From the NCBI GenBank assembly GCA_011364925.1, contig RDOA01000002.1, forward strand, positions 62,001-126,000: a DNA stretch of 64,000 nucleotides. The letters are read 5' to 3'. This document shows positions 8,197 through 64,000 of the stretch, in pieces. The stretch's first letter is position 1, and each line of letters opens with the position of its first letter. The notes beneath the pieces are model-generated. The model was not told the DNA's origin and ran no database searches. It saw nothing but the letters and a program-made list of their open reading frames with translations. The translations under genes and the position numbers were made by a program. Source of the stretch: Promethearchaeota archaeon (GTDB lineage: Archaea; Asgardarchaeota; Lokiarchaeia; Sigyniarchaeales; SOKP01).

Positions 8197-8904
8197 TTAT
8201 TCTTCTATTGGGTGAACTTTAAGCGAATCAATAATATTAATTATATCTTCAGCAAGTTCGTACCGCTCATCGCGATATTTTTCACGATTTAATCGTTTTT
8301 CAACCTTAAGCGGGGTACCAATTTTAACTCTGATTCCCGTTGTGTTAAACATGCCAAGAACCCTCGCTTTTTCGGTGTAGATCGCTAAAGGAATTATCGG
8401 TGCCATTCCTGCAACTGCGAATTTAATAATTCCCGCCATGGCTTTTACTTGAACTTCTGGCGTTAACTTGGATTCTGGCGTCATAGCCACAAGATCCCCT
8501 ACCTCGTTAAGATAATGAAACACCATATCAATTGGAACAGTATCATCTTTATCAAGAGTACTACGGAACATTCCTAAATTTTTCAAAACAGGTCCATATA
8601 TTTGATGTTTCATTAACTTGTGATGAACCATAAAATGGATTCTACGTCCGGTAACCTGGCTAATAATTGCCATGTCTCTTAGTGCGTTGTCGCTTATCGT
8701 AGTCAAAATGGCCTTACCCTTAACTGGCACATTTTCTCTGCCCTCTATCTTCAAGTCAGCGAAAGCTCCTAAGCCAAAACCTCCAATTCCTTTTGTAACT
8801 GCGTATAACACATCTTTCATTAAATCCGTACTGAAAATCTTATCCTTTCCTTTCGTTTCTTTTTCTTCTTTTACTTCTTTTTCTTCTGGTATTGTTTGAA
8901 CCAT
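8197..8904 (-). CDS. PlsC-like acyltransferase with altered active site
   Basis: The 235-residue protein follows the 1-acyl-glycerol-phosphate acyltransferase fold: a KAILTTISDNALRDMAII segment, then MTPESKLTPEVQVKAMAGIIKFA and APIIPLAIY. The catalytic HX4D motif reads DNALRD, so the His is replaced by Asp, and the PEGTRS substrate-binding motif reads PESKLT. Known members need that His as general base, so this protein is probably inactive or uses different chemistry. It sits 12 nt downstream of a 64-residue gene in the operon that begins with a BadF-type activase. The N-terminus is Lys/Glu-rich. Confidence 0.75.
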   Translation of the reverse strand: MVQTIPEEKEVKEEKETKGKDKIFSTDLMKDVLYAVTKGIGGFGLGAFADLKIEGRENVPVKGKAILTTISDNALRDMAIISQVTGRRIHFMVHHKLMKHQIYGPVLKNLGMFRSTLDKDDTVPIDMVFHYLNEVGDLVAMTPESKLTPEVQVKAMAGIIKFAVAGMAPIIPLAIYTEKARVLGMFNTTGIRVKIGTPLKVEKRLNREKYRDERYELAEDIINIIDSLKVHPIEE

Positions 8905-9132: not shown

Positions 9133-10158
9133 TTAAGTTAATTGATCCCATTTTCCGCATCGAGAGCCCCAACGGGCTATAATTTTATTACCAAATTCTG
9201 GCATTTTTACTTGAACAATCTCACAATTATTCGGACAGTCGCCACAATTGAAAGCAGAGGTAGTAAATTCAATCTCTGCTACTTCAAGACCTCTAAACAC
9301 TGTCTCGTGTTCGCGTTCTAAATAATAGTCTCTAACTAAAATAGCCATACCAAGTGCTCCCATAAGAACGTTATATTTAGGGACTATAACTTTACACCCT
9401 AAGTGCCTCTCAAAAGCTTCTATAATTCCCTTATTGTAGGACACCCCTCCTTGAAAGACGATTGGTTCTTCGAGGTCTTTACCTTTACCAACGTTGTTCA
9501 TATAATTGCGAACGAGAGAATCGCACAGTCCAGCAATTATATCCGCTTTAGAATACCCCGCGTTTTGCTTGTGAATCATATCTGATTCAGCAAATACAGT
9601 ACACCTACCAGCTATACTTACCGGGTTCTTTGATTTTATAGCATAATCTCCAAACTCTTCAATAGGAATCCCAAGCCTCGCCGCTTGGTGGTCAAGGAAC
9701 GAACCTGTTCCAGCAGCGCAAACAGAGTTCATTGCGAAATCTATAATTATGCCATCTCTCAAGAGTATAATTTTAGAATCCTGACCTCCGATCTCTAATA
9801 TGGTTCTTACATCGGGATACATTGTTTGAGCGGCAACAGCGTGAGCAATTATCTCGGTTTTTGCGAGATCTGCTCCTACAATGGCTTTAGTTAAATATCT
9901 TGCTGAACCAGTCGTCCCACAGCAACGAATAGCATATTCGGGTAAATTCTCACTCTCTTCTATTTTATCGCGTAATTGTGCCATTCCTGCTTTTGCTGAA
10001 TCGATAGGAGAACCTCTATTCCGCAAAAATACACTGGTTAGTATATTTCCGTCAGTATCCATAAGAACGAATTTACAACTTACGCTACCTATGTCGATTC
10101 CAAGGAACGCATCCTTCTTATCTTCTTCTTTCATTACTTTTTCAGATACATCTTCCAT
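9133..10158 (-). CDS. BadF/HgdC-type ATPase (dehydratase/reductase activase)
   Basis: The 341-residue protein belongs to the ASKHA-fold activators of 2-hydroxyacyl-CoA dehydratases and benzoyl-CoA reductases. Visible motifs are the phosphate-1 loop FLGIDIGSVSCKFV (residues 18-31), GGQDSK near 125-129, NSVCAAGTGSF with Cys147 and GRCTVFAESD with Cys186; these two Cys would bridge the [4Fe-4S] cluster across a dimer. A C-terminal extension holds a further FNCGDCPNNC cluster. Such proteins use ATP hydrolysis to push an electron to very low potential. It heads a four-gene operon with a promoter motif at 10295-10359. Confidence 0.92.
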   Translation of the reverse strand: MEDVSEKVMKEEDKKDAFLGIDIGSVSCKFVLMDTDGNILTSVFLRNRGSPIDSAKAGMAQLRDKIEESENLPEYAIRCCGTTGSARYLTKAIVGADLAKTEIIAHAVAAQTMYPDVRTILEIGGQDSKIILLRDGIIIDFAMNSVCAAGTGSFLDHQAARLGIPIEEFGDYAIKSKNPVSIAGRCTVFAESDMIHKQNAGYSKADIIAGLCDSLVRNYMNNVGKGKDLEEPIVFQGGVSYNKGIIEAFERHLGCKVIVPKYNVLMGALGMAILVRDYYLEREHETVFRGLEVAEIEFTTSAFNCGDCPNNCEIVQVKMPEFGNKIIARWGSRCGKWDQLT

Positions 10159-14419: not shown

Positions 14420-15604
14420 TTATTCGGTAATAATCTTAACGCACTCGTTATAGAAAGAGTCGCCGTAGTAAGGATAAATTTTCCGATTCCCATTTGCTTG
14501 GAATTCTTTGTTTTTTTCTATTTCCTTTTTCCTCCTACCATGCATAAGGTCTGCGAACGCCTCTAATCGCGTGCGGAAACCTTCCATACCTGATTGTTCA
14601 TCGAAGGAGAAATAAATTATTGGGAGATCGTAGATTTTCTTGAGTTTATTGGTTATAATCGTGCGAGCTACGACCTCAGGCATACATAAAAAGGGATACT
14701 CATGGACGAAACCATCAAATCCAGCCAGCGCCTTGTCGATATACTCCCCAAGCACCCACCTCGCCTCTCCACCGCAGTCTAACGGTAAATATGGACGCGA
14801 AAGATGCTCCAACCATTTTCTGTGATAATTTAGATGAAATTTGTGGACAACCCAATCATACAAGCTTAGAGATTGGTGAATTTCGATTCCCATCTCACCT
14901 AGCTTTCTTCTAATGTCAAGGTTAACGTAAGGTTCCAAGCTTATATGAATCTCGCCCGATATCCCTACTTTTAACGGAGTTCGAGTTTTATCGATATCCA
15001 GACCATTAAAATCTTGTTTAATAACATTTTTAAATTTCCTTAACTCGGGGAGCGTATTAGCCTCGTCGAGCTTTGTTAGCAGACCATTTACAATGTCTGT
15101 AGTGTCTCCTTGATTTCGCTCGTACGCTCGGAATAGCCCCTCTGCCGTCTGGATGTCGTTGAGTAATTTAGCCTTCTTTAGGAAAAATATGATGGCTTTC
15201 ACAAACTTCGAATAAACGAACAAATCACTCCGACCACTTATTTCTTGAAGCGTTTTAACCCAATGAAACTCAAGTAAATCGGCCTGATCCAAGGGGACTA
15301 CCGTAATATTCTTGTATCCCATATCCTTTAGAATTCTCTCCTGCACAGAAGCATAAAATCCGAACCTACAAGGTCCACAGTCGATCGCCATGACTAATGT
15401 ATCTGCTCCCTTCTCGATGGCATTGACAAAATCCCCTATTGTCGCCTTGAATGGAAAACAAACGAACTCTGGAGATTGCTTAACGCCGATTTTGATTGCC
15501 TCACGATTTGTTGGATCAGGAACGACCACATCTAAATCAAGGCTTGTAAAAAGTGTTTTAAAGGCAACCCAGTTTGGGCCCATATTAGGGAAGGAGATTA
15601 ACAT
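14420..15604 (-). CDS. COG3581-like 2-hydroxyacyl-CoA dehydratase-related protein
   Basis: The 394-residue protein belongs to the uncharacterised relatives of HgdB/DCCP. Conserved cysteines are in QSPEFVCFPFK (Cys49), IDCGPCRFGFYASVQERIL (Cys76 and Cys79) and YPFLCMPEV near residue 305; they would hold an iron-sulfur cluster. The last part has the MEGFRTRLEAFADLM helix found in the whole group. It is a close relative of the protein at 15780-17105. It has its own promoter with the shared motif (copy B), so it is a separate transcript rather than the tail of the upstream operon. Activities of this group are unknown. Confidence 0.85.
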   Translation of the reverse strand: MLISFPNMGPNWVAFKTLFTSLDLDVVVPDPTNREAIKIGVKQSPEFVCFPFKATIGDFVNAIEKGADTLVMAIDCGPCRFGFYASVQERILKDMGYKNITVVPLDQADLLEFHWVKTLQEISGRSDLFVYSKFVKAIIFFLKKAKLLNDIQTAEGLFRAYERNQGDTTDIVNGLLTKLDEANTLPELRKFKNVIKQDFNGLDIDKTRTPLKVGISGEIHISLEPYVNLDIRRKLGEMGIEIHQSLSLYDWVVHKFHLNYHRKWLEHLSRPYLPLDCGGEARWVLGEYIDKALAGFDGFVHEYPFLCMPEVVARTIITNKLKKIYDLPIIYFSFDEQSGMEGFRTRLEAFADLMHGRRKKEIEKNKEFQANGNRKIYPYYGDSFYNECVKIITE

Positions 15605-15620
15605 CTTAAATCTAAGAAAT

Positions 15621-15682
15621 TTTACCTAAGTCAAGTATTTGATCAAAACATGGTTTAAAATAAAAATTTACCCCTTATAAAC
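15621..15682 (-). promoter_or_regulatory. Shared motif and TATA block, copy B
   Basis: Plus-strand 15621-15647 reads TTTACCTA, seven bases, then TATTTGATCAAA. Six bases later, 15654-15682 is the same 29-bp TATA-containing block as copy A, differing by one base. The TATA-like GTTTATAA lies about 70 bp upstream of the ATG of the gene at 15604, leaving a leader of about 48 nt that contains the motif. TTTGATCAAA is a perfect palindrome, fitting a dimeric regulator. Confidence 0.6.
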
Positions 15683-15779
15683 AAAATATTAATCATGTGT
15701 TATTTTTAATAAAAAATGGGAGCAATAATAATAAGATAGGATGCAAAAATTAATATTCCAGATAGTTCCAAAACTCGAA

Positions 15780-17105
15780 TCAAGATACCAGATTTTTCCA
15801 TATCGAATTTCTTGAAAAGAACTCAAGTCCGTTCTTAACGGCGAATCCTACATCTAATTTCTTTGATGGATTCAGCATAGTTAAAACCTTTGACATTGGT
15901 GTTTCAATACTAGAAACAAAATAATCAAAATTAGATTTCGGCTTAAAATATATACTTTTTATTTCATCCGGGATCACATACTTGACATCTTTAAACAAGG
16001 GATTAGCATTCTTGTTGCCGACCATTAAATCATGAAATGCTTCGATTCTTGTTCTAAGTCCTTCAAAACCAGAACTTCCATCAAGACTAATATGAATTTG
16101 GGGCATGTAAAACTTGTCCATGTTTTTCTCAGCCTCTAGCATTCCCATGAGGGATATTTCAGGCATGCAAGTGAAGGGAAAAATGTGGACATAGCCGTCG
16201 AACCCTTTTTCTTGACACTCAAGATAACTCCCCATGTTCCAGATCATCTCCCCACCAACATCCATTGGGACATAATTTTTTGCCCTTTTTTCAAGTCGTC
16301 TTCTTCGTTGGCTGGCGTCAAGTTTGTACATAACCCAATCAAAGACATCATACTGCTTGTGAACCTCGATACCCATGACGCCTAATTCTCCCATCAGATC
16401 ATAATTAACCCATTTCTCCAACATGACTTGGATTTCCCCAGTATAACAAACCCTCAAAGGTTCCATTTCCTTGTCAATAGGAATCTTGCGAAAGTGTTCA
16501 TCTATCGTTCTATCAAAATTAGATAATTTCATCAAATTGTATTCGTTATCAAGTAAATTCATCAAAGTATGAACTACTTTGGTAGTCATTGCTTTGGTTT
16601 TTTCCCGACATCTAACAAGTCCTTCAATATGGCTGATTCTTTCAACATAGTATGCTTTGATTAAGAACAAGAGTGTGTTTCTTAAAATTTTATAGTCATC
16701 AATTTTTCTTCCTGTTCTTTTTTCTAAATCATGAAACATCCTTAGCCATTCAAGATTTCGGAAATCATCTTGATTCAGATAAAACATTCTAACATCATTG
16801 AATCCCATGTTTTTCAAGATCCTTTTCTGGACAACAGCATAAATTCCTGCTCGACAAGGACCGTGATCAACAATCATCGCAAAATCTTTGACGTCATAAT
16901 TACGATACAGGTTTATCATTTCACCAAGAATGACTTTAAATGGAAAACAAACGAATTCAGGAGAAACTTTGACTCCTTCACTAACGATGTCAGTGTTTAC
17001 TAAAGGTGGTTCAACAACTTCAATACCAGGAAGATCATAGAATAAACCTTTGAAAAAAATATAGCTCCAACCCATTCGTGAAAATGCAATTCTGACATTT
17101 ACCAT
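15780..17105 (-). CDS. COG3581-like 2-hydroxyacyl-CoA dehydratase-related protein
   Basis: At 441 residues, this is a paralogue of the protein at 14420. It conserves SPEFVCFPFK (Cys53), VDHGPCRAGIYAVVQKRIL (Cys84) and FPFTCMPEISLMG, and the GFEGLRTRIEAFHDLM helix. The extra Cys before GPC found in the paralogue is His here. Its start codon overlaps the end of the activase gene by 7 nt, so the two are translationally coupled, with the activase the likely electron donor to its iron-sulfur cluster. It is the last gene of the operon that starts at 20640. Confidence 0.85.
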   Translation of the reverse strand: MVNVRIAFSRMGWSYIFFKGLFYDLPGIEVVEPPLVNTDIVSEGVKVSPEFVCFPFKVILGEMINLYRNYDVKDFAMIVDHGPCRAGIYAVVQKRILKNMGFNDVRMFYLNQDDFRNLEWLRMFHDLEKRTGRKIDDYKILRNTLLFLIKAYYVERISHIEGLVRCREKTKAMTTKVVHTLMNLLDNEYNLMKLSNFDRTIDEHFRKIPIDKEMEPLRVCYTGEIQVMLEKWVNYDLMGELGVMGIEVHKQYDVFDWVMYKLDASQRRRRLEKRAKNYVPMDVGGEMIWNMGSYLECQEKGFDGYVHIFPFTCMPEISLMGMLEAEKNMDKFYMPQIHISLDGSSGFEGLRTRIEAFHDLMVGNKNANPLFKDVKYVIPDEIKSIYFKPKSNFDYFVSSIETPMSKVLTMLNPSKKLDVGFAVKNGLEFFSRNSIWKNLVS

Positions 17106-18130
17106 TTACCGCACCTACTGTTCCATCGTGCAAATATCCTATCATCCTTTTCTTTTCCAGTTACCTTACTTTTATCTTCTTCTCTGACAATGTATTTAAC
17201 CGTACATCTATTCGCACAATCAGGACAGACAAATGAACCTGGAGCCAAGTTCATTTCACTGACTTTTAGGCCATGAAAAGAAGATAGCTGTCCATTTACA
17301 TGTTCCTTTGCCAAAATGGCTGAACCAAATGCTCCCATCACATAATAGTTTTCATGAATAATGACTTCATGCCCCAATTCTTCTTCAAAAGCATTTTTTA
17401 TTCCGGAATTTGCTGCAACTCCTCCTTGGAATACGAAGGGAGGACTCAGTTTTTTACCCTTGCACACATTATTCAAGTAGTTTCTAACAAGAGCTTTACA
17501 TAATCCCTTGATAATTGCTTCTTTAGAATATCCTTCTTGTTGTTTACTGATCATATCAGATTCGGCAAAAACTGTGCATCGTCCTGCAATTGAAACCTCC
17601 TCTTCTGCCCGAGAAGCATAATCCCCAAATTCTTCAATTGGAACCTTGATCCGAATTGCTTGGTGATCTAGAAAAGAACCAGTTCCGGCAGCACAAACAC
17701 TGTTCATGTTAAAATCTGTTACGATGCCATTTTTCATCAATATAACTTTGCTGTCCTGTCCTCCGATTTCAAGAATTGTTCTCACGTCAGGGGTATAAGT
17801 TGAAGCTCCAATTGCGTGAGCAATTATTTCAGGTTTTGCTATATCTGCACCGATTAAAGCTTTTATTAAATACCTAGCAGAACCTGTTGTCCCAACACCA
17901 TAAATATTTTTTTCGATGTGATCGGGAAGGACTTCTTCCATGTATTTTAGATTTTCTTGTGTAGAAACAATGGGAGAACCATCATTTCTAGTCCAGGTTG
18001 CATACAATAATTCATTACTCTCATTAATTATTGCACATTTCGTGGAGACACTTCCGACATCGATTCCTAGATATAACTTGTCTTCCACATCATCTGGAAG
18101 AATATTCTTGATAAATTCTGGTTCATTCAT
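17099..18130 (-). CDS. BadF/HgdC-type ATPase (activase)
   Basis: The 343-residue protein has the same motifs as the activase at 9133: YLGIDVGSVSTKCAI near residue 20, EIGGQDSK near 121-128, NSVCAAGTGSF (Cys146), GRCTVFAESD (Cys185) and a C-terminal FVCPDCANRC cluster. It overlaps the upstream fusion gene by 4 nt (ATGA-type overlap) and the downstream COG3581-like gene by 7 nt. This strict coupling suggests equimolar synthesis and a functional complex in which ATP hydrolysis drives an electron to the dehydratase-like partners. Confidence 0.92.
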   Translation of the reverse strand: MNEPEFIKNILPDDVEDKLYLGIDVGSVSTKCAIINESNELLYATWTRNDGSPIVSTQENLKYMEEVLPDHIEKNIYGVGTTGSARYLIKALIGADIAKPEIIAHAIGASTYTPDVRTILEIGGQDSKVILMKNGIVTDFNMNSVCAAGTGSFLDHQAIRIKVPIEEFGDYASRAEEEVSIAGRCTVFAESDMISKQQEGYSKEAIIKGLCKALVRNYLNNVCKGKKLSPPFVFQGGVAANSGIKNAFEEELGHEVIIHENYYVMGAFGSAILAKEHVNGQLSSFHGLKVSEMNLAPGSFVCPDCANRCTVKYIVREEDKSKVTGKEKDDRIFARWNSRCGKW

Positions 18131-20640
18131 TTGTATTTCTTCCTCCTTATCATTTCTATAAAAGATTCTATTCTTGTGGTTATTTGGGATTCTCCAGTGT
18201 GTTCATCTAATGTAAGATCAATAAAAGGTTTATTTTTCATGTCAAAATCCTGCATTACCAATTCTTGAATTAAAGAATCAGGACCACATGCAAAAGAAAT
18301 TAAGAAAATGCCTCCATCAATCTCTTCATTATGGATAACATAATCAGATAATTGCATCAATTCATCTTCATTATCCCAGAAATTGGTTAGATTATCATCA
18401 ATTTCAACTCTTCTTGAGAAGATTTCCTTTGGAGCATTTTCAACAGTTACAACATCAACAAAATTGGCTTTGAGTATATCCATTAATCCATGATTAATAA
18501 TTGGTTCATAAGTGTTGTATGGATGACCAAGAACCATTAATGTAAGTGGATAATTTTCATAATCTTTGTTAAGTTTAGGTCGAAATCTTTTCTTAAACTT
18601 ATAATTAGGATATTTATCAAAAGGATACATTTTGTAAAGTGCATCAATGACAAGAATTCCATCCTCAGTCAACTTATGGAATTCTTCAAGTTTTTTATAT
18701 CCGTTCTCATACGCAAGTTTTGATTCTTCTTTAGATTTGCCTAATGTTTTTCCAAAATCTATTGCTGATTTCATCATTGTATGTTCCCTGGCATTAAAAG
18801 TCCATTCAATAACGGGAACATTAGAAACTGTCGAGTGCTGAGTGACATCTGGAAGGAGCAGGAATTTTGGACAATAATAATGATCCTTACTTTTACTAAC
18901 GAGTCTTGGAACAAATATAAAATCTAGATCGGGGTGATTCGTCGATAAATAATTCACATGACCGTAATGAATCTTGACTGGAATGCATAAATCGGTTGCA
19001 GACTGATTAGATCCGTTGGTAAGAATTTCTTTGTTCGTTTCTGGACTCACAATAACTTCGCAACCAAGACTTGTAAGCATTCCTTCCCATAATGGAAAAT
19101 ACTTGTAGAAATACAGGGAACGTGGTATACCTACCTTCAGGCTTTTCGTCTTTTCAGGTTTTTCAGTCTTTTCAGTTTTTTCGTTCTTTTTCTTATAATT
19201 CGTCTTTTCGTACAGGTTTCGAAATAGGTTCTTAGGATCCGTTCGTTCTTTCACATTATCGTATAATTCCTTGTTATATATCTTCCAGAACAAGTCTTCC
19301 TCGTAGAAATTGTGAGTTATTAGAGTTTTCATTCCCCCGAGCTCATAAACCTTTTCTTCAAGCGCTTTATAGAAGTTAAATCCCTTTCTTTTTTGCTCGA
19401 ACCCGTAGATGGCAAAATCTATGAATAATTCATCCTCGATGGGAGCGAACATGTCTTGATTAAGCCACGGGTAGAACTTGTACCCATCCAGCTTGTCTTT
19501 TTGCATGCGGTAAGGGACGATCCAAACCGGGAAGTAATTATCAAATACATCCAGGTACCAATTAAAAAATTCTTCCGCGTGAGTGAATGGTATGAAGACA
19601 TCAACAATTACGTCCGGTTCTCCACCCTTCTTAGTTAAAAATGGCAATCGTTCGCTGATGTTAAGAATATTTGTTGATCCAAGTATATAGGGTCCTACTA
19701 ACCACCGGACTACTTTATTCTCAAAAATTCCTCCAGCAACATTCCGTATCGACCAGTGACAATCTGCATCATACCTGAAAAAATAATCTATGGTGGAGAG
19801 GAAATCTCGCTTTTTTTCCATCGCACTTTTGTAATAAATATCGTAAAAATATTGACTCTTGTAAGGAGCTTCCTCCTCATCAACGAAGCTGGCAACACAG
19901 AGTACGTTCATATTCTTGGAGAAGATAAGCCCGTCCATCATTTCAATATCCTGCTTTTCGTAGTGTTGCATGATAGCTTCCATGTATTCACTAAAAGTAT
20001 TGTAACGGATGTAATCGATGCGAACGCACTTTTTTGCTGGAACGAGCTTAAACTTTAGGAGTGTGATGATTGCAATCGTGCCAAAACTCCCATGCAGCAT
20101 CTCGAATATATCATGGTTATCGCTTTTCGTGCATAACATTATGTCGCCTGTTCCTGTCACGATTTCTATTTCTTCACAGGAATCGAAAAATCCCCCATAC
20201 TTGAAAGACATGGATTCAACAGAACATCCTGCTACTGCCCCGCCTATCGTGATTCCCTTGAGCTCGGAAACCGTTTGCGGTACAAGACCATACTTTAAGG
20301 TTTCTGTTGCAAGTTTAACAAAAGTAACCCCTCCTTCTGCAATACATGTCCTAGTATCCGTGTTTATCTCAATAATGTCAGTAAGTGACTTTACATCAAT
20401 CGGCTTGTCACTATAGATTGGGTTATCTGGTTGTGGAGCCATGTGGGAAACATTCGCCTTTTTTAGAGAAAAATATTCTCCTGGCTTCGCGTTGTCGTAC
20501 GCGTTTCTAACCATTTCAGAGATCGCTTCTACTTTTCTTTTATGTATTGCTAGTTTTTCTTCGCTCATGTCATACACAGGCTTGGGATTATTGCACGAAA
20601 CGATCCTTGCTTTGGGAAGGAAATTAACATTATTTTTCAA
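18127..20640 (-). CDS. Fusion: DHCR24-like FAD oxidoreductase plus DUF2229 domain
   Basis: The 837-residue protein has two parts. Residues 80-500 look like a VAO-type FAD-binding oxidoreductase; GITIGGAVAGCSVESMSFKYGGFFD near 129-153 and the HGSFGTIAIITLLKFKLVPAKK segment closely resemble the Delta24-sterol reductase (DHCR24) group. A KEKT-rich linker near 490-510 leads to a DUF2229/COG3580 domain with ATDLCIPVKIHYGH, YYCPKFLLLPDV and SFACGPDSL, a close relative of the 358-residue protein at 25716. The start is TTG at 20640, next to the shared promoter motif. It opens an operon with an activase and a COG3581-like protein. I infer a flavin-to-iron-sulfur electron path. Confidence 0.85.
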   Translation of the reverse strand: MKNNVNFLPKARIVSCNNPKPVYDMSEEKLAIHKRKVEAISEMVRNAYDNAKPGEYFSLKKANVSHMAPQPDNPIYSDKPIDVKSLTDIIEINTDTRTCIAEGGVTFVKLATETLKYGLVPQTVSELKGITIGGAVAGCSVESMSFKYGGFFDSCEEIEIVTGTGDIMLCTKSDNHDIFEMLHGSFGTIAIITLLKFKLVPAKKCVRIDYIRYNTFSEYMEAIMQHYEKQDIEMMDGLIFSKNMNVLCVASFVDEEEAPYKSQYFYDIYYKSAMEKKRDFLSTIDYFFRYDADCHWSIRNVAGGIFENKVVRWLVGPYILGSTNILNISERLPFLTKKGGEPDVIVDVFIPFTHAEEFFNWYLDVFDNYFPVWIVPYRMQKDKLDGYKFYPWLNQDMFAPIEDELFIDFAIYGFEQKRKGFNFYKALEEKVYELGGMKTLITHNFYEEDLFWKIYNKELYDNVKERTDPKNLFRNLYEKTNYKKKNEKTEKTEKPEKTKSLKVGIPRSLYFYKYFPLWEGMLTSLGCEVIVSPETNKEILTNGSNQSATDLCIPVKIHYGHVNYLSTNHPDLDFIFVPRLVSKSKDHYYCPKFLLLPDVTQHSTVSNVPVIEWTFNAREHTMMKSAIDFGKTLGKSKEESKLAYENGYKKLEEFHKLTEDGILVIDALYKMYPFDKYPNYKFKKRFRPKLNKDYENYPLTLMVLGHPYNTYEPIINHGLMDILKANFVDVVTVENAPKEIFSRRVEIDDNLTNFWDNEDELMQLSDYVIHNEEIDGGIFLISFACGPDSLIQELVMQDFDMKNKPFIDLTLDEHTGESQITTRIESFIEMIRRKKYK

Positions 20641-20646
20641 AGAAGT

Positions 20647-20723
20647 TTTACTTAGGCAAGTATTTGATCAAATCTATGAAATCAAATAACTCACTCTAAA
20701 ATAAAAATTTACCCCTTATAAAC
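20647..20723 (-). promoter_or_regulatory. Shared motif and TATA block, copy C
   Basis: Plus-strand 20647-20672 reads TTTACTTA, six bases, then TATTTGATCAAA, ending 6 nt before the TTG start at 20640. After 22 bases, 20695-20723 is the same 29-bp block as copies A and B with one or two changes. The TATA-like sequence is about 80 bp from the start, so the motif lies in the leader close to the start codon, where a bound protein or an RNA fold could block translation. Confidence 0.6.
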
Positions 20724-20879
20724 AAATTGTCAATTGTATGATACTTTTAATAAAAATTTCAATAATATATATTAATTTTCACAGATCGATTGACACTATT
20801 ATATTTGTATCTCCCGTCATATTGAGTTCTTCTAACATATATATAGCTCCTCGCTTCAGTCAAAAACTTTATTCCTTTC

Positions 20880-20973: not shown

Positions 20974-22383
20974 TTACAACAAGTTATCTGACTTCTTCAT
21001 TAGTTCATTCTTCTTTTTACGCAGTCTTTTAGCCTGGACTGCGATAGTTTCAAGAAGTCTTATTTGGTTAGAGGCTAACCATGGGCCTTCACAATCCACG
21101 GCAGCGTATGGAACATCACTCTTATTGGCCAAAGGTCTTATGATTGCTTGAGAATTCATAGCAGGTTGGCAATTAAATGTTCCAAGGTTTATTAAGCCAT
21201 CGTAAATGTTTTCCTTAAGAGAATACAAAAACCTACCAACAATTTGTGGTGTTTCAGTCATACTGTTTGAGGATACATATTTATTACCTTCTTCTAGGAG
21301 TTTATCAATTTCGATATAGGAATCGAACAATAATCCTGATCTACTCATTATTCTTCTGTACATCTTACATTGAGTATCAATAAAATTTATCATACTCTTG
21401 GTTCTTTTCGCTCTTACTGCCTCTTTTTGTTCTTTTTCGTTTAATTCAGAAAAATTAATTAAGGCCTCATCGAACTGATCTTTTGGGGTGAGAAGTCCTT
21501 TACTAAACCCAAACCTTATTGTATTTTCGGACAAAAGTAAAGTCATCCCTTCTGAAACATCAGCAACCTTTGTTATAATTCCTTTCTGAAGGAAAAATTC
21601 TTCAATTGGATAATGATCAAACATTAAGTTCAATCCCCCAAAGATTAAAATTTTAGTAGTCTCTTCGACTTTAGCTTTTAAAGGGATTTTCGCAACTTCT
21701 TTTGCCCACCTTACTAAACCAGTTTTTATGGTTTTTTCCCCCATTCTCACGCTTTCAATGAAGTTGGTTGTAATTTCTTCGAAAGTGTTCAAAGCAGAGT
21801 ATTCATCCTCAGCCGTACATCGTAGGGCGTTCCGCGCTTCAATTATATACTGTCCGATTATAAAATTGAGCTTTTCTTGCGCAATAAAGTCTTTATTCAA
21901 TCCTAGATAATTATTATAATAATTAGGTATCTGGTAGAATAACACATTTTTCAGATTCAGTCGTTTTGAAAAGTTTTTCCATATAACTGGCCATGCACCA
22001 TTCTGACACGGGCCATCTTGATCTATGGGAGTAATATAAATAGTGATCTCGTTTTCAGATCTATTCTCATGAATATCTTTCAATATCTCACCAGCAATAG
22101 CAACACACGCAAGACATTCTCTTCCAGAACAGATCTTCTTACCGTATTGTAGAGTGGAGGTGTTAGTTTCTTTGCTGATACGGACATTCTTATTGTGTGA
22201 AGCGTACAAATCTTTAACAAGACGTATCCCATAAGAATTTCTTGGTTCTGGCAAAACATAGACAATTCTTGGATCACTAAAGTCAACGCTATTTCCATCG
22301 CTGTCTATAATAGAACCATTATGAACTTCAGCCGATTTTACTTTTTGAATATCTTCGATTTTAAATTTCTTTATATCAGACAT
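20974..22383 (-). CDS. COG3581-like 2-hydroxyacyl-CoA dehydratase-related protein
   Basis: The 469-residue protein carries cysteine motifs of the group: CSGRECLACVAIAGEI near residue 87-102, DQDGPCQNGAWPV near 136, and LGTFNCQPAMNSQ near 400. It resembles the C-terminal part of the large bacterial activase-COG3580-COG3581 proteins of unknown function, which here are split in two. It follows the 977-residue activase/DUF2229 protein by 17 nt and so should be its partner subunit. Function is inferred from the group only. Confidence 0.82.
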   Translation of the reverse strand: MSDIKKFKIEDIQKVKSAEVHNGSIIDSDGNSVDFSDPRIVYVLPEPRNSYGIRLVKDLYASHNKNVRISKETNTSTLQYGKKICSGRECLACVAIAGEILKDIHENRSENEITIYITPIDQDGPCQNGAWPVIWKNFSKRLNLKNVLFYQIPNYYNNYLGLNKDFIAQEKLNFIIGQYIIEARNALRCTAEDEYSALNTFEEITTNFIESVRMGEKTIKTGLVRWAKEVAKIPLKAKVEETTKILIFGGLNLMFDHYPIEEFFLQKGIITKVADVSEGMTLLLSENTIRFGFSKGLLTPKDQFDEALINFSELNEKEQKEAVRAKRTKSMINFIDTQCKMYRRIMSRSGLLFDSYIEIDKLLEEGNKYVSSNSMTETPQIVGRFLYSLKENIYDGLINLGTFNCQPAMNSQAIIRPLANKSDVPYAAVDCEGPWLASNQIRLLETIAVQAKRLRKKKNELMKKSDNLL

Positions 22384-22400
22384 TTTTCTATTAAAATTCT

Positions 22401-25334
22401 CTAGCTTGTTAATTCAAATTTTTTACGTCGTTCTTCAATTATATCAAGAAATGCTTCTACCCGTGTTTCAAAACCAGCATGTGCAGTATGTGAATCAATC
22501 TCAAGATAACAAAATGTAGATCCTGCAAGCTCCTGTCGAAATTGATGATACATTGTACCGTCAGGACCACAAGAAAAACAGGAAACCATACAAATATAGA
22601 CATTTGGATTTTTTTTTGCGAAATTTACTGCATTATCGATCTGTTGAGTAAAAAGCCATGCATTTCGTTCATGATTAGCCGTTAGTAGTGGTAAAATATC
22701 AACTGGAATAGCATGATATCCTCTACTTGCAATTTTCTGAGGAAGTGCAATATTAATATCATTAGGATAGATTACATAAGGTCTTCCAGCAATTATTACA
22801 CTTGGTTCCTTGATTAATTTATCTAGTAGTTTTTCTCCTAACTCATGATACTTCCGAATAAACTTTTTATAATGAGAAAAAGCCCGTTTACCTGCTTCTA
22901 TTCCTACACTCCTTTCTAATCCGAGTTGAATCGCAACTTGCCCCAATTCTTGTAATGTTGTTTGTAAATATCGTTTCGATGTGCTTATATGAGGTGCTAA
23001 AATTCTATCTTGCTCGTTCTCAAACGCAGCTCGAACAACATCAGATATAACAGCTGTTGAGCTGCAGGTATACCCGTGAAGATATCCATCTGTAGGTTCG
23101 AATTCAAAAGTTCGAGGTAAAAATATATATTCGATTCCTTGGTTGATAAGATCTAGTACTGCTCCATGCGTTAATTCACCAGGATAACATATCGATGCCA
23201 ATGTTTTAGTATTTCCTAATGTATTTGATTTTGATAACACTACATCGAATCCCAATTCATTAATAAATTTGGTATAAAAGGGAAAAAGTGAATGTGTAGT
23301 TAAAACCATTGGTAAACCAATAGATCCTAGTGAATTTTTAAGAGCAGTTGGTCCAAATTCATCGTAAATCATTGAGTTCCTTATCTCTACTAGATTTTTA
23401 CCTAGTTTTATCTTTTTGCCTCTCTGACGCAATAGCTTGTATTTTGAACATAATCCACCAAACGGATAGGTATTGCCTCTTATGGAAATGTTTTGGATCT
23501 CGCAATTGTTTTCACATGCATTACACCTAAATGTGCTCTTTACTTTCATCTCTCCATGTAGAAGATCCCTTAAATTAAAATTATGTTCAGAGATTTCTTC
23601 GTTTCTTAAAAGATCGAGAGCCATTAGAGCAGAACCTATACTTCCCATAAGCTCGGGATGGGCTGGAACAATAATTTTTCGTTGAACTCGATCAGCAATG
23701 GCTAATGCAACAGCTTTATTTAAAGCAAGGCCTCCCAGAAATAAGATATTTTCACCAATTTGGCGGGATCCAATGATCCTCGAAATATAATTATCAGCAA
23801 TTGAATAAACAAGACCTGCAACAACATCCTCTCGTTTAGCGCCTTGCTGTAGTGCGTTTCTTAAATCAGTATTAATAAAAGCTGCACATCTTTCCCCAAA
23901 TGAAATTGGCTGAGAGCTGGTTAGAGCAATTTCACTGATTTTTTCGACTGGAATCCCCATATCTACTGACGCAGATTCTTCTAAAAAACTCCCAGTTCCG
24001 GCAGAACACCCTTCATTCATAGCATAATCAATAGGAACACCTTTTAAAAAGGAAATAAATTTTGAATCTTGCCCACCAATTTCAAAGACAGTATCGATTC
24101 CAAGTAATTCTTCCGTAGCGGATCGTGCGTGAGCTAATATTTCGTTAAAACTTCGACAATTATCCAAATACACTGAAACCATTTCTCTCGCTGACCCTGT
24201 TACACCGCATTGAATTATATTAATCGTAGTATTGCCAATTTGTTCTAAAAGTATCTCTAGACACTGTTTTGTTGATACAATGGGATTCCCTAAAGTTCTT
24301 AAATACGCACTAGCTCCAATGGAACTATCTTTTACATTGAATAGAACTGCTTTTGTAGTAGTTGATCCGGCGTCTAAACCTAATATATAGGATCCATTTT
24401 TAACAATTCTCATTTTAGTAGCTGGTTCTACTCGATAATCTAATAAATTTTCAATACTGGTAAGGGTTTTAGTAGTTTCAAAGACCGACTCCTTTTGTTC
24501 AATCAAATTTTCACTCCTTTGAGTATCATTTTGAATCTCAGACGCATATAGAGCCGCTCCAAAGACTTCAAGAAATGGGCTTTCTGATAAAACTTCAATA
24601 TCAGAGGATGGAAGAAAGTTTTGCATACTTTCGATAAAATACTTATTTAAAGAAACCCCACCCGTGATAACTATTAAATCAGTTGGCCATTGAGCACTCT
24701 CAATCATTTCACTCACTTTTCTTGCTAAATCGTGTATTAATGTTTTTGCGATGTCTTCTTTTTTACATTCTCCTTTGTTAAGTTTATGCGTCGCGTCAGA
24801 TTTACAATGCACCGAACATCGAGTTGCTAATTGAACTAACTGCCCCTTTGAACTTTCCTCAATTCCCTGCTTTACAGAGAGACCCATCCTTTCAAGTTGC
24901 TGGACGATAAATTCTCCTGTTCCAGCGGCACATTTAGAGGTTGAAATAATATTCTTAATAACGCCATTTTTCATTGGGTATATACTAAATGTTTCGCCTC
25001 CTAAAGAAAGAAGTAAATCGGGTTTTAAATTATAATATTGCAGTGCTTTTTCAAAGCATTCTACTTCAGAATAATAGGGAAAATCGAAAAATTGTTTTGC
25101 AACATTTCCTGTCATAACGATATTTGAATCACCATTGGTATTATGACGTTTAAAAATCTCTCTAATTTTTTCTCTAGGGAAACCCTCATGACGCAAAACT
25201 TCATTTATTATCGTTCCGTCTTGGGAAATTCGAACCCATTTTACAGAAACCGCCCCTATCTCTAATCCCTCATAATACTTATACTTGTACGAGACTTCTT
25301 TTGTGAAACTTTCGTTTGACATTAGGATCATCAA
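22401..25334 (-). CDS. Double BadF-type activase fused to DUF2229 domain
   Basis: The 977-residue protein has three parts. Residues 20-270 are a first ASKHA activase domain, 310-580 a second, and 650-970 a DUF2229/COG3580 domain. The second activase is canonical: LGLDAGSTTTKAV, GGQDSK, EGCSAGTGSF (Cys443) and FGERCAAF (Cys483). The first keeps its cluster cysteines (SKCAAGTGEF Cys135, ATRCSVHCKSD Cys173) but has GLEIGAVSVK in place of the Asp-containing phosphate loop and GGETF in place of GGQDS. The C-terminal domain has ASICYPGELTHG and CFSCGPDGTMYHQ. The start may be TTG 25334 or a later ATG (25331 or 25322). Confidence 0.9.
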   Translation of the reverse strand: MMILMSNESFTKEVSYKYKYYEGLEIGAVSVKWVRISQDGTIINEVLRHEGFPREKIREIFKRHNTNGDSNIVMTGNVAKQFFDFPYYSEVECFEKALQYYNLKPDLLLSLGGETFSIYPMKNGVIKNIISTSKCAAGTGEFIVQQLERMGLSVKQGIEESSKGQLVQLATRCSVHCKSDATHKLNKGECKKEDIAKTLIHDLARKVSEMIESAQWPTDLIVITGGVSLNKYFIESMQNFLPSSDIEVLSESPFLEVFGAALYASEIQNDTQRSENLIEQKESVFETTKTLTSIENLLDYRVEPATKMRIVKNGSYILGLDAGSTTTKAVLFNVKDSSIGASAYLRTLGNPIVSTKQCLEILLEQIGNTTINIIQCGVTGSAREMVSVYLDNCRSFNEILAHARSATEELLGIDTVFEIGGQDSKFISFLKGVPIDYAMNEGCSAGTGSFLEESASVDMGIPVEKISEIALTSSQPISFGERCAAFINTDLRNALQQGAKREDVVAGLVYSIADNYISRIIGSRQIGENILFLGGLALNKAVALAIADRVQRKIIVPAHPELMGSIGSALMALDLLRNEEISEHNFNLRDLLHGEMKVKSTFRCNACENNCEIQNISIRGNTYPFGGLCSKYKLLRQRGKKIKLGKNLVEIRNSMIYDEFGPTALKNSLGSIGLPMVLTTHSLFPFYTKFINELGFDVVLSKSNTLGNTKTLASICYPGELTHGAVLDLINQGIEYIFLPRTFEFEPTDGYLHGYTCSSTAVISDVVRAAFENEQDRILAPHISTSKRYLQTTLQELGQVAIQLGLERSVGIEAGKRAFSHYKKFIRKYHELGEKLLDKLIKEPSVIIAGRPYVIYPNDINIALPQKIASRGYHAIPVDILPLLTANHERNAWLFTQQIDNAVNFAKKNPNVYICMVSCFSCGPDGTMYHQFRQELAGSTFCYLEIDSHTAHAGFETRVEAFLDIIEERRKKFELTS

Positions 25335-25715: not shown

Positions 25716-26792
25716 CTATACTTCTTGTTTTGAGCGAATAATTAAATGTTGCTTTTGGTTTAAGTCCTTTCTTCTTTTCTTTCTTCTAATCATTTCAACA
25801 AAACTTTCTACTCTTGTCAATAATCCAGCTTCTCCCGAATGTTCATCCATCGTAATCTCCAAGAAAGGAAGTCCAACAACTTTCATATCGCGCATGATTA
25901 ATTCTGAAATTAGACTATCTGGACCACAAGCAAAACTTATTAAGAAAATAACTCCATCAATTTCGTCTCGACCTTCAGTGAGGAAATATCGGATGCTTTG
26001 CATGATTTCTTCTTCATGGCGCCAGTAATTTCGAAGTTTCCCACCTTTTGGGTTGACGATAACAGGTTTCTTAAAAATGAATTCTGGTAAGTTTTCGATA
26101 GTGATAACTTCTACTCCTTGATCTTGTAACTTTTTCTGAAAATCAAGGTTGATGAAAGTATCGAATATGTTGTAAGCATGTCCTAATAGTAAAAACTTTA
26201 TATCACCAGTGAGTTTTCTCTTAGGTAAGGTAAAAGAGCGATTCCTTTCAGCTAACCGTAGTGCATAATTGACCGAAGCGCCGTTTCTCAAAAATTCGTG
26301 ATACTCGTCAAAATACCTTTGGGCTTCTCTATACGCGTTTAAAGATTGATTTTGAGTTTTTCCTAACTGACTACCGAGTTCAATTGCGGCTGCTGATATA
26401 GGAAACTCTTTAACATTTACCTCAAAGTTCAAAATTTTTGGAACTCCCGGTAAAATTTTAATTACATCGGGTAATGATAAGAATTTTGGGCAAAAATACG
26501 AATCTTTTGTTTCAGAAACATATCTCGGTACAAAAATATAGTCTAAATCAGGGTGTTCTTCTATTAGTTTGATAACTTGTCCGTAGTAAATCTTAACGGG
26601 AATGCATAACTCTCCAAATCCATGAGTTACGCCTTCCTCAACTATTTTTTTGTTTGTAAGGGGACTTATAACGATTTCGGCATCTAGCTCTTCTAAGATC
26701 TTTTTCCAAAACGGAAAATACCTGTAAAAATGAAGCGCTCTCGGTATCCCCACTTTGAATTTTTTCTTAGTGGACGGTTGTGGAACTTCCAT
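25716..26792 (-). CDS. DUF2229/COG3580 dehydratase-related protein
   Basis: The 358-residue protein begins after a short basic leader with KVGIPRALHFYRYFPFW and carries GELCIPVKIYYGQ, SYFCPKFLSLPDV and SFACGPDSL, the cysteine motifs of the DUF2229 family, then a GEAGLLTRVESFVEMIRR helix. It is the stand-alone version of the C-terminal domain of the protein at 18127. It is the last gene after the tandem acyltransferase (21 nt) and the HAD phosphatase. It probably binds an iron-sulfur cluster reduced by one of the activases. Confidence 0.85.
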   Translation of the reverse strand: MEVPQPSTKKKFKVGIPRALHFYRYFPFWKKILEELDAEIVISPLTNKKIVEEGVTHGFGELCIPVKIYYGQVIKLIEEHPDLDYIFVPRYVSETKDSYFCPKFLSLPDVIKILPGVPKILNFEVNVKEFPISAAAIELGSQLGKTQNQSLNAYREAQRYFDEYHEFLRNGASVNYALRLAERNRSFTLPKRKLTGDIKFLLLGHAYNIFDTFINLDFQKKLQDQGVEVITIENLPEFIFKKPVIVNPKGGKLRNYWRHEEEIMQSIRYFLTEGRDEIDGVIFLISFACGPDSLISELIMRDMKVVGLPFLEITMDEHSGEAGLLTRVESFVEMIRRKKRRKDLNQKQHLIIRSKQEV

Positions 26793-26813: not shown

Positions 26814-28493
26814 CTATGCATCTGGGCTATCATAAAGCAATAAATCTTTAATTTGAGCCATCATATTGGCAGTTAGACGCTTTAATTCTTCGTAGTCCGG
26901 CATAGGTTTACCCCAATATTTTTTGTGCTCCATGAATAAAGGTCCTGCTTTTAAGATATGACCTGTGTAGAAATTCAACATTTTCGCGTGTTTGGGATAG
27001 ATGTCTTCCGTTCCCGTTATCCCGATCAGTACGATTGGAACTTGTTTTTCGATCGCTAAACGCATCGCTCCGGTGTGACCCTCCAATAGTTCTCCGCCAC
27101 CAGGATTAGTAGTTCCCTCAGGATAAACTACACATAATTCTCCTTTGTCCAATACACTTTTTGCGTAATTGAATGAATCTATATCGTGTTGACCGCGTTT
27201 AAGTGGGAAAGCGTGATGGTTTCTAATCCACGCGTTAACAAGCGGCGGTTTGAATAAGGTTTGTTTTGCCATCTGATATAAAACCCGTTTACTATGATAG
27301 ATTAAACTCGTTGCTAAGATAATTACATCCCATTCAGAATTGTGGTTAGTGCACACGACAGCAGCTCCTTCTTCGGGTATATATTTTTCGAAATCAATTA
27401 CTTTATAGGGCATCATCAGTTCACACCAATTGTGGACTAACCAACCCGAGAAGTTTTGGACAGTTCTCTGAAATTGATCTCGAACTCCAAAAACCTCCAA
27501 TGTCTTTAAAAACGAATACCATATATCGTCGAAAAGTTGTAATGTACCTATTCCAACATCTTTTAAATAACCCTTGAAGGAGAACGAATCTTTAGGTTTT
27601 TGGGCGTCTTCTGGAGAACCGATTGATAATTCCTCTTCTTTCTTTTGCTTTCTCGGATCTACAATAACGTAATCTCGCAAATCTAGTACTACTTGACGTA
27701 ATTCAGTGGTTAGTCTTTTTATTTCTTCGTATGATACTTTGTTAATATCGTATTTGTCGTAATATATTGGGTCTCCTACGCGCACTTTAACTTGAGTTGG
27801 CTTCATTACAAGTTTGCCTTTGGGTAACGCATTTCTCGATCCTATAACTGCCATAGGAACTATAGGTACTTTCGTCTCAATGGCTAGTCGAACCGCTCCT
27901 GTTTTAAATTCTCCGAGCTCCCAACCTGTCTCTTCTCGAGATCGTGTCCCTTCAGGGAAAATGCCAACCCACTCTCCATTACGTATAATCTCCTTAGCTG
28001 TCTCCCACCCTTGCTCAGGATTTTCTCGGTCTAATTTAAACGCTCCGAGATTAGTAAATAAGGTTCTTACTAAAGGAGTTTTGAAATTGTCCAACTTACT
28101 CATGTATCGGATTCGTCTGTGGCACGCAGCACCATAGAAGAACGGGTCTAAATGGCTTTCATGGTTTCCCACTAGGATGCCCGGACCATATTCAGGGAAC
28201 ATATTCCCTTGTGGGTATTCTGCTTTAAAATTCCACAAAAGACGAGCAAAAAACTTAATATAGATAAACGCAGCCCACCATTGGAGTTGTCCTTCAATAT
28301 CTTCAACGTCTAATCGTTTAATAGCTTTGCGGTAAAGGTCGTTTAAGGGATCAATAGGATTATACTTTAATACCTTATAAGTTGCGTTTTGATGTCGTTT
28401 TCCGAAGTCTAATTCTTCTTGTTCCTTTTCTTCAGTAGTTTTAACTAAACGCGTTTCTTCAGTAGTTTTAAATTCTTCTTCTTCTAGTACCAT
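26814..28493 (-). CDS. Tandem PlsC-type acyltransferase
   Basis: The 559-residue protein has two complete PlsC domains. The first, about residues 75-280, has ILVGNHESHLDPFF (HX4D) and IFPEGTRSREE. The second, about 345-545, has VVCTNHNSEWDVII and VVYPEGTTNPGGGE. Both keep the catalytic His and Asp and the substrate-binding PEGT motif. The family acylates lysophospholipids or glycerol-phosphates with acyl-CoA or acyl-ACP. This is notable in an archaeon, whose main lipids are ether-linked. The gene is flanked in one operon by a HAD phosphatase (13 nt upstream) and a DUF2229 protein. Confidence 0.88.
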   Translation of the reverse strand: MVLEEEEFKTTEETRLVKTTEEKEQEELDFGKRHQNATYKVLKYNPIDPLNDLYRKAIKRLDVEDIEGQLQWWAAFIYIKFFARLLWNFKAEYPQGNMFPEYGPGILVGNHESHLDPFFYGAACHRRIRYMSKLDNFKTPLVRTLFTNLGAFKLDRENPEQGWETAKEIIRNGEWVGIFPEGTRSREETGWELGEFKTGAVRLAIETKVPIVPMAVIGSRNALPKGKLVMKPTQVKVRVGDPIYYDKYDINKVSYEEIKRLTTELRQVVLDLRDYVIVDPRKQKKEEELSIGSPEDAQKPKDSFSFKGYLKDVGIGTLQLFDDIWYSFLKTLEVFGVRDQFQRTVQNFSGWLVHNWCELMMPYKVIDFEKYIPEEGAAVVCTNHNSEWDVIILATSLIYHSKRVLYQMAKQTLFKPPLVNAWIRNHHAFPLKRGQHDIDSFNYAKSVLDKGELCVVYPEGTTNPGGGELLEGHTGAMRLAIEKQVPIVLIGITGTEDIYPKHAKMLNFYTGHILKAGPLFMEHKKYWGKPMPDYEELKRLTANMMAQIKDLLLYDSPDA

Positions 28494-28506: not shown

Positions 28507-29289
28507 TTAGGATTTTATTTTTACACTATTTTTAGTGCTCGAATCGGATATATTCTTTTTTTCAATTAACTTTTTTAATTCCTCTAGTGAATCAATTAAT
28601 AAATCGGGTTCGAATTCTGCTAACATCTCTTTTTTACTAACACCGCTTGCGACTCCGATCGTCCAAACTCCAGCTTCTCTCCCAGCTTGGATATCTGAAG
28701 GCATATCCCCAATCATTACAAACTCTTTCAAATTACACGATTTGTAAGTCTCGAAAACGGGATTTAGAGCTGTTGGATCGGGTTTCAAATTAGGGAGAAG
28801 ATCAGCTCCAAAAACACCTTTAAAAACGCTTTTAACCTTGTTTTCTTCAAGATGAGGAATGATATTCTTAGTCTGATTATGTGATACGATAAAAAAGTCG
28901 TACGATTTCTTGTATTTACTAATGAAATCGGTTGCTTCGGGGTAAAAGGGTGCTTCTTTAGCTAATGTTAAGTATCGAGTAAATATTTTTACCGCTATTC
29001 TTAATTTTTTAAAGAATGTTAATGATTGGAGCGAAGTAATGTATTTAAACAATTCAAAAGATTCTAATATGATTTTAGGAAGTGGCGTTCCTTGGATTAT
29101 CTCCATTAAAGCTCCGATCTCTTGCATCGTAGTTTCAATATTGGTCTTAATCTGCTTCTCTTCGTAGACTTCTTCTATTGATTTCTGAAGTGATTCTCTT
29201 ATATCGAGGACAGTTCCGTCAAAATCGAAAATAATACCTCGAATTGTCCCATTTTGAAGCCGCTTTACTAATTGATTGTCAGAGATCAT
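28507..29289 (-). CDS. HAD superfamily hydrolase
   Basis: The 260-residue protein has the HAD motifs: IIFDFDGTVLD near residue 19 (nucleophile and acid Asp), IVSHNQ (motif II), KPDP with its conserved Lys (motif III), and MIGDMPSDIQAGREAG (motif IV). The cap of about 90 residues between motifs I and II fits subclass I, as in phosphoglycolate phosphatase. It is the first gene of an operon with the tandem acyltransferase and a DUF2229 protein, so a phospholipid-linked phosphatase is possible, though other substrates are equally likely. Confidence 0.85.
   Translation of the reverse strand: MISDNQLVKRLQNGTIRGIIFDFDGTVLDIRESLQKSIEEVYEEKQIKTNIETTMQEIGALMEIIQGTPLPKIILESFELFKYITSLQSLTFFKKLRIAVKIFTRYLTLAKEAPFYPEATDFISKYKKSYDFFIVSHNQTKNIIPHLEENKVKSVFKGVFGADLLPNLKPDPTALNPVFETYKSCNLKEFVMIGDMPSDIQAGREAGVWTIGVASGVSKKEMLAEFEPDLLIDSLEELKKLIEKKNISDSSTKNSVKIKS

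Positions 29290-61883: not shown

Positions 61884-64000
<2,117 letters not shown>

Follow-up and report, generated by a model that had tools for sequence, protein, structure and literature searches.

A fused flavin and iron-sulfur reductase cassette of Lokiarchaeia with a possible role in membrane-lipid reduction

The literature leaves open what role bacterial-type PlsY and PlsC genes play in Lokiarchaeia (PMC6737245, PMC9385802). The answer is central to the question of how membranes of the archaeal kind could have yielded to eukaryotic ones, Lokiarchaea being close archaeal relatives of eukaryotes. We analysed 64,000 nucleotides of a Promethearchaeota archaeon (contig RDOA01000002.1, positions 62,001 to 126,000; hereafter the window), whose 3.9-Mb genome is listed as 100% complete. 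Among the PlsC-linked genes of the window lies a cassette, F-G-H (Table 1), in which F fuses a flavin adenine dinucleotide (FAD) domain to a DUF2229 domain (Red1), G is an activase (Act) and H is a COG3581-like cysteine protein (Red2). What could such an assembly reduce? We tentatively propose that the products of F-G-H form an ATP-driven complex for the reduction of membrane lipids, which would convert an ester to a vinyl ether and then to an alkyl ether, the FAD domain saturating the enol-ether double bond or another double bond of the chain.

The fusion protein and its flavin half

A preliminary description of this locus had recognized a FAD-DUF2229 fusion, a BadF-type ATPase and a COG3581 protein, encoded by three genes overlapping by 4 and 7 nucleotides. 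The domain content proved to be as described and both overlaps, F/G (4 nucleotides) and G/H (ATGGTAA, 7 nucleotides), were confirmed in position and found in all seven relatives checked, although the start codon of G differs among relatives (ATG, GTG or TTG). G was assigned to BcrAD_BadFG/TIGR00241, and the DUF2229-like start of H is weak. In the listed open reading frame of F (18127-20640, minus strand), FAD_binding_4 covers residues 81-170, DUF2229 residues 502-734 and an HGD-D tail residues 754-831; the FAD half spans about residues 25-485 and the DUF2229/Red1 half about residues 501-837, with a Lys/Glu/Thr linker of variable length between them. The TTG at 20640 was rejected as the start codon since, unlike the ATG at 20568 (residue 25 of the listed frame), which is conserved in 13 of 13 loci compared, it is not conserved; nor is the sequence upstream of about 20610. 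Judged by this conservation, translation most likely starts at the ATG, which would give a protein of about 813 residues.

The fusion is not peculiar to one assembly, as the preliminary description had feared. Other Lokiarchaeial genomes carry full-length fusions at 86-93% identity. The fusion is a single open frame of 806-815 residues in eight further loci of Lokiarchaeia, which come from separate contigs and studies. This answers the concern about a chimeric contig, an explanation that was rejected given the many independent assemblies in which the fusion recurs. Intact or partial copies were found in at least 28 of the 61 genomes of one Lokiarchaeial family, across five genera, the fragments often ending at contig ends. 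Among 97 genomes the fusion was not seen outside that family, and no copy of F was found in viral contigs. One contig filed under Ignavibacteriales bacterium (L041, JAFGID010000177.1) carries the Lokiarchaeial cassette at 91%; it is probably mis-binned, because the content of the locus is Lokiarchaeial.

The best non-Asgard matches of the FAD half, aligned nearly full-length, are FAD-binding oxidoreductases of Tsukamurella, Nocardia, Nonomuraea, Prescottella and Variovorax. With five BfaA-like proteins it shares 28-30% identity over 415-473 residues (E = 1e-49 to 1e-53), and 66 columns are invariant among the seven sequences aligned for this comparison. A CMAS-type methyltransferase gene adjoins all six of the best bacterial homologues, which is the bfaAB (tmsAB) arrangement of 10-methylstearic acid synthesis. 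The FAD_binding_4 match in F begins only at profile position 47-48; the same holds for the BfaA-like Variovorax relative, so the N-terminal FAD-binding part of F is degenerate in the same way. BfaA/TmsA, the 10-methylene reductase of tuberculostearic acid synthesis, is a relative of the FAD half over its full length, including the C-terminal half as well as the degenerate N-terminal part. By comparison, the matches to six further FAD_binding_4 proteins encoded in this genome were confined to partial stretches (E = 5e-5 to 0.1). On the strength of this full-length similarity, set against the marginal similarity to the genome's own FAD_binding_4 proteins, the FAD half is assigned by sequence to the lipid alkene reductases. 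In the same FAD_binding_4 comparison an identity as a GlcD-type hydroxyacid oxidase was rejected. DHCR24, or Delta24-sterol reductase, to which the domain had been likened, belongs to the same flavoprotein superfamily and also performs lipid C=C chemistry; BfaA is the nearest characterised relative that we found, DHCR24 lying outside the comparison set. BfaA carries out the NADPH-dependent reduction of a 10-methylene group on phospholipid chains (PMC7791843, PMC5660069). Whereas BfaA is an unfused protein with the methyltransferase BfaB as its partner, F has an iron-sulfur partner instead: no bfaB (CMAS) gene was found near the cassette in the window, and CMAS matches across the genome were partial and weak, none being full-length.

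Iron-sulfur partners and known counterparts

Conserved cysteine motifs are present in the Red1 half of F (LCIP, YCPK and ACGP) and in H (VCFP, GPCR and TCMP). When aligned with the PlsA/PlsR homologues of Listeria and Fusobacterium, Red1 of F, C and D and Red2 of H, I and E contain three cysteines each, and the Red1 ligands are also retained in a Paraclostridium homologue. G keeps both cluster cysteines of HgdC (VCAAGTG and RCTVFAES). Bacterial parts of the Act/Red1/Red2 type convert ester lipids into plasmalogens (PlsA/PlsR) or alkyl ethers (Ger) (PMC12838417, PMC13274423, PMC11150832, PMC8788747, PMC9702350). Like PlsA-PlsR of Clostridium perfringens, Enterococcus and Listeria, and Ger of Thermotoga maritima and Desulfatibacillum alkenivorans, F-G-H comprises Act, Red1 (DUF2229) and Red2, with three shared cysteines in Red1 and three in Red2. 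It differs from them in having one separate Act, a Red1 fused to the FAD domain and a Red1 that falls outside the PlsA clade. F-G-H is best seen as a variant on the ATP-driven reductases of the PlsA/Ger type and not as a new kind.

The preliminary description fared unevenly here. Its view that no system of this design had been described needs correcting in that the design has relatives, DUF2229, COG3581-like and activase parts already making up PlsA/PlsR and Ger. It had overlooked the surrounding PlsC-linked operon, the neighbouring PlsA-PlsR-like pair and the mobility of the cassette. Its picture of an ATP-driven, low-potential electron transfer tied to a flavin reductase is supported by the cluster cysteines of the activase, the Red1/Red2 cysteines and the lipid alkene reductase type of the flavoprotein; of the two substrates that it had suggested, an alkene in a lipid is favoured and a coenzyme A (CoA) ester is not.

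The two-gene form of the bacterial systems, Act-Act-Red1 plus Red2, is present in the neighbouring pair D-E. Fusion of activase and Red1 in one chain is found in D and is absent from F-G-H. Alignments of D to homologues from Listeria, Fusobacterium and Paraclostridium cover about 97% of its length at 26%, in the tree its Red1 falls with PlsA, and the adjacency of D and E resembles a PlsA-PlsR-like pair of Fusobacterium, giving a two-gene PlsA plus PlsR-like architecture (20974-25334) in an archaeon. Copies of D-E, 66-70% identical, lie beside PlsC-Red1 genes in other Lokiarchaeial loci. Separate DUF2229, COG3581 and activase genes also stand three in a row in Monoglobus pectinilyticus (L051; activase 51% and Red1 30% identical); this set differs in lacking a FAD domain, in its gene order and in having no adjoining PlsC. 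A literature search for COG3580/COG3581 returned nothing useful.

A candidate ester-to-ether reductase and its alternatives

The genome has five DUF2229 and three PlsC domains, every one of them located between 8.2 and 28.5 kb of the window; the PlsC domains are confined to B and the acyltransferase gene at the end of its operon. There is also a PlsY-family match in the genome. Of 18 Red1-type loci, which represent several families as well as the wider class, 17 have at least one PlsC-type gene just upstream, and the remaining locus is cut by a contig end. The order HAD-PlsC-Red1-Red2-Act(-acyltransferase) is conserved across Lokiarchaeia, often with the HAD phosphatase present. Among the 97 genomes, 64 have both PlsC and DUF2229, 20 have neither and 13 have only one (Fisher P = 2e-10, uncorrected for relatedness); in 57 of the 64 the two are on one contig, a few kilobases apart. 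That PlsC genes almost always stand beside ATP-driven reductases of the ester-to-ether type suggests that Lokiarchaeial acyl chains are attached as esters and then reduced to ethers.

We envisage F-G-H as an accessory, horizontally spread paralogue of the Lokiarchaeial operon that combines Red1-Red2-Act with genes for PlsC-type acyltransferases and a HAD-type phosphatase. In the proposed scheme, whose cofactors, substrate, two reactions and reaction order are all predicted, G would be reduced by a low-potential donor, hydrolyse ATP and pass single electrons to an iron-sulfur heterodimer formed by the C-terminal half of F (Red1) and H (Red2). The heterodimer would then reduce and dehydrate the acyl-ester carbonyl of a glycerolipid, giving a vinyl ether in the manner proposed for PlsA/PlsR. 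The FAD domain joined to Red1 would next saturate the enol-ether double bond (or another double bond in that chain), in the way that BfaA does with a 10-methylene group, and a stable alkyl ether lipid would be released. In the tree, Red1 of F clusters with the PlsC-linked Red1 of another Lokiarchaeial family (99/96).

Several observations weigh against this proposal. In the tree, Red1 of F falls in a clade of separate genes with Monoglobus (100/98), and we know of no activity for any separate Red1-Red2-Act set. Bacterial Ger yields alkyl ethers without a FAD domain, and the known lipids of Lokiarchaeia are isoprenoid-based (PMC9385802). No PlsC gene was found within the flanks examined around the cassette in L039, L040, L043, L047 and L048. 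One Sigynarchaeial genome encodes a FAD-only homologue of F (62%; L050 9983-12618), and no DUF2229 was found anywhere in it, so the FAD enzyme has a use that involves no ester reduction. The AlphaFold model of F is too poor for use (pLDDT, the predicted local distance difference test score, is 49.5), probably owing to a shortage of diverse sequences. As a separate observation, the Sigynarchaeial gene overlaps a gene for an MFS transporter by 4 nucleotides.

The FAD-only protein of Sigynarchaeota also speaks for an alternative in which Act/Red1/Red2 supplies the electrons instead of NADPH and the FAD domain by itself reduces a membrane lipid, isoprenoid, polyprenyl or methylene-branched, at an unactivated C=C, with no ester reduction. 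The tethering of FAD to Red1 by the fusion and the isolated alkene that serves as the substrate of BfaA also fit this alternative. However, since NADPH by itself suffices for BfaA, electrons driven by ATP would be a waste, and the genome already encodes at least six proteins of the geranylgeranyl-reductase (GGR) family above the family cut-off, which makes generic isoprenoid saturation a less likely need for F. We consider this alternative unlikely.

Less probable still is an enzyme acting on CoA esters in amino-acid or aromatic fermentation, in the manner of (R)-2-hydroxyacyl-CoA dehydratases or benzoyl-CoA reductases, with the FAD domain working on a 2-hydroxy or enoyl substrate. Those enzymes share with F-G-H an HgdC-type activase, to which G is similar (Table 1), and a two-subunit design of the cluster protein, and a tryptophanase is encoded nearby (30692-32317). 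Against this, Red1 matched solved dehydratase subunits only in its last 60-100 residues (E about 1e-3), a sequence search found no full-length homology of Red1 or Red2 to solved subunits of either enzyme class, and H had no match at E 0.5 in a search of PDB sequences. In addition, the gene neighbourhood is different, the conserved neighbours being acyltransferases and not CoA-transferases, and the FAD half is BfaA-like and not GlcD-like. A small-molecule reductase of the double-cubane cluster type, or a maturation or repair enzyme with the flavin as an electron relay, is improbable: the double-cubane cluster protein (DCCP) belongs to the same superfamily and the Red1 C-terminus weakly matches 7yyl/6eno, but this explanation leaves both the PlsC linkage and the lipid-reductase flavin domain without a place.

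Returning to the ester-to-ether proposal, its fullest form is that the archaeon makes ether lipids from acyl-ester lipids in one complex, the iron-sulfur core forming the vinyl ether and the fused flavin domain saturating it. We regard this specific version as doubtful. If true, such a one-complex route would give a role to the unexplained PlsC genes of Lokiarchaeia. A yet-unknown enzyme turning vinyl ethers into alkyl ethers is named in PMC13274423, and the fusion would be a concrete candidate for that postulated enzyme.

Spread of the cassette and other genes of the window

At four-fold degenerate sites, identity to the counterparts in other genomes is 66-94% for F, G and H but 25-48%, near saturation, for A, B, C, I, the other Act, the acyltransferase, D, E and tnaA, all measured in one set of genomes. 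The high identity of the F-G-H block (Table 1), combined with saturation of its neighbours at synonymous sites, indicates that the cassette has spread horizontally between genera, long after the genera split. This recent spread suggests that the cassette is under current selection. No transposase or recombinase was seen inside the block. In this window and several others, the cassette is preceded by a duplicate of gene I's leader and first codons, probably a captured promoter. Fragments of Red1/Red2 genes occur at cassette edges (L038 1640-2263, 7147-7780 and 8945-9268; L049 11101-11439; L036 3258-3401; L048 14816-15019) and look as if Red1/Red2 paralogues recombine often. Given these pieces and the leader copy, the cassette could plausibly have moved by homologous recombination between paralogues.

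Table 1. Features of the cassette, the PlsC-linked operon and the D-E pair (window coordinates)
Feature	Position	Strand	Description
F	18127..20568	-	BfaA-like FAD reductase domain fused to DUF2229/Red1; ATG start corrected to 20568
G	17099..18130	-	Activase (Act), BadF/HgdC-type ATPase; PF01869 5.5e-47; HgdC (1hux) 4.6e-39
H	15780..17105	-	Red2, COG3581-like; three conserved Cys and C-terminal extension
Cassette F-G-H (4.8 kb)	15804..20610	-	blastn blocks from 20610 to 15804, 87-94% nucleotide identity; abrupt edges, unrelated flanks elsewhere
Copy of gene I (Red2b) leader, upstream of F	20611..20756	-	Similar to 15560-15734, including TTTGTTTATAAGGGGTAAATTTTTATTTTA and TTTGATCAAATACTTG
A	28507..29289	-	HAD-type phosphatase heading the PlsC-linked operon
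B	26814..28493	-	Two PlsC acyltransferase domains; PF01553 1.6e-54, two stretches
C	25716..26792	-	Red1 of the PlsC-linked operon
D	22401..25334	-	PlsA-like Act-Act-Red1 protein
E	20974..22383	-	PlsR/Red2-like, three Cys
I	14420..15604	-	Red2 of the PlsC-linked operon
Act of the PlsC-linked operon	9133..10158	-	About 53% identical to G
PlsC-family acyltransferase, operon end	8197..8904	-	PF01553 4.8e-7

In two loci of the wider class (L063 and L065), a LarA-type (lactate racemase-like) gene lies between the gene for an 876-residue PlsC protein and the HAD gene of the operon. Elsewhere in the window, a gene encoding 700 residues with peroxidase domains, the size of a catalase-peroxidase (61884-63986), has a G+C content of 47% compared to about 33% for the window and is possibly a recent acquisition. 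A gene for an MttB-family methyltransferase (3462-4898) is an open frame without an in-frame TAG, inside which the Rfam family PYLIS_3, the pyrrolysine insertion element of mttB, matches at 3839-3936.

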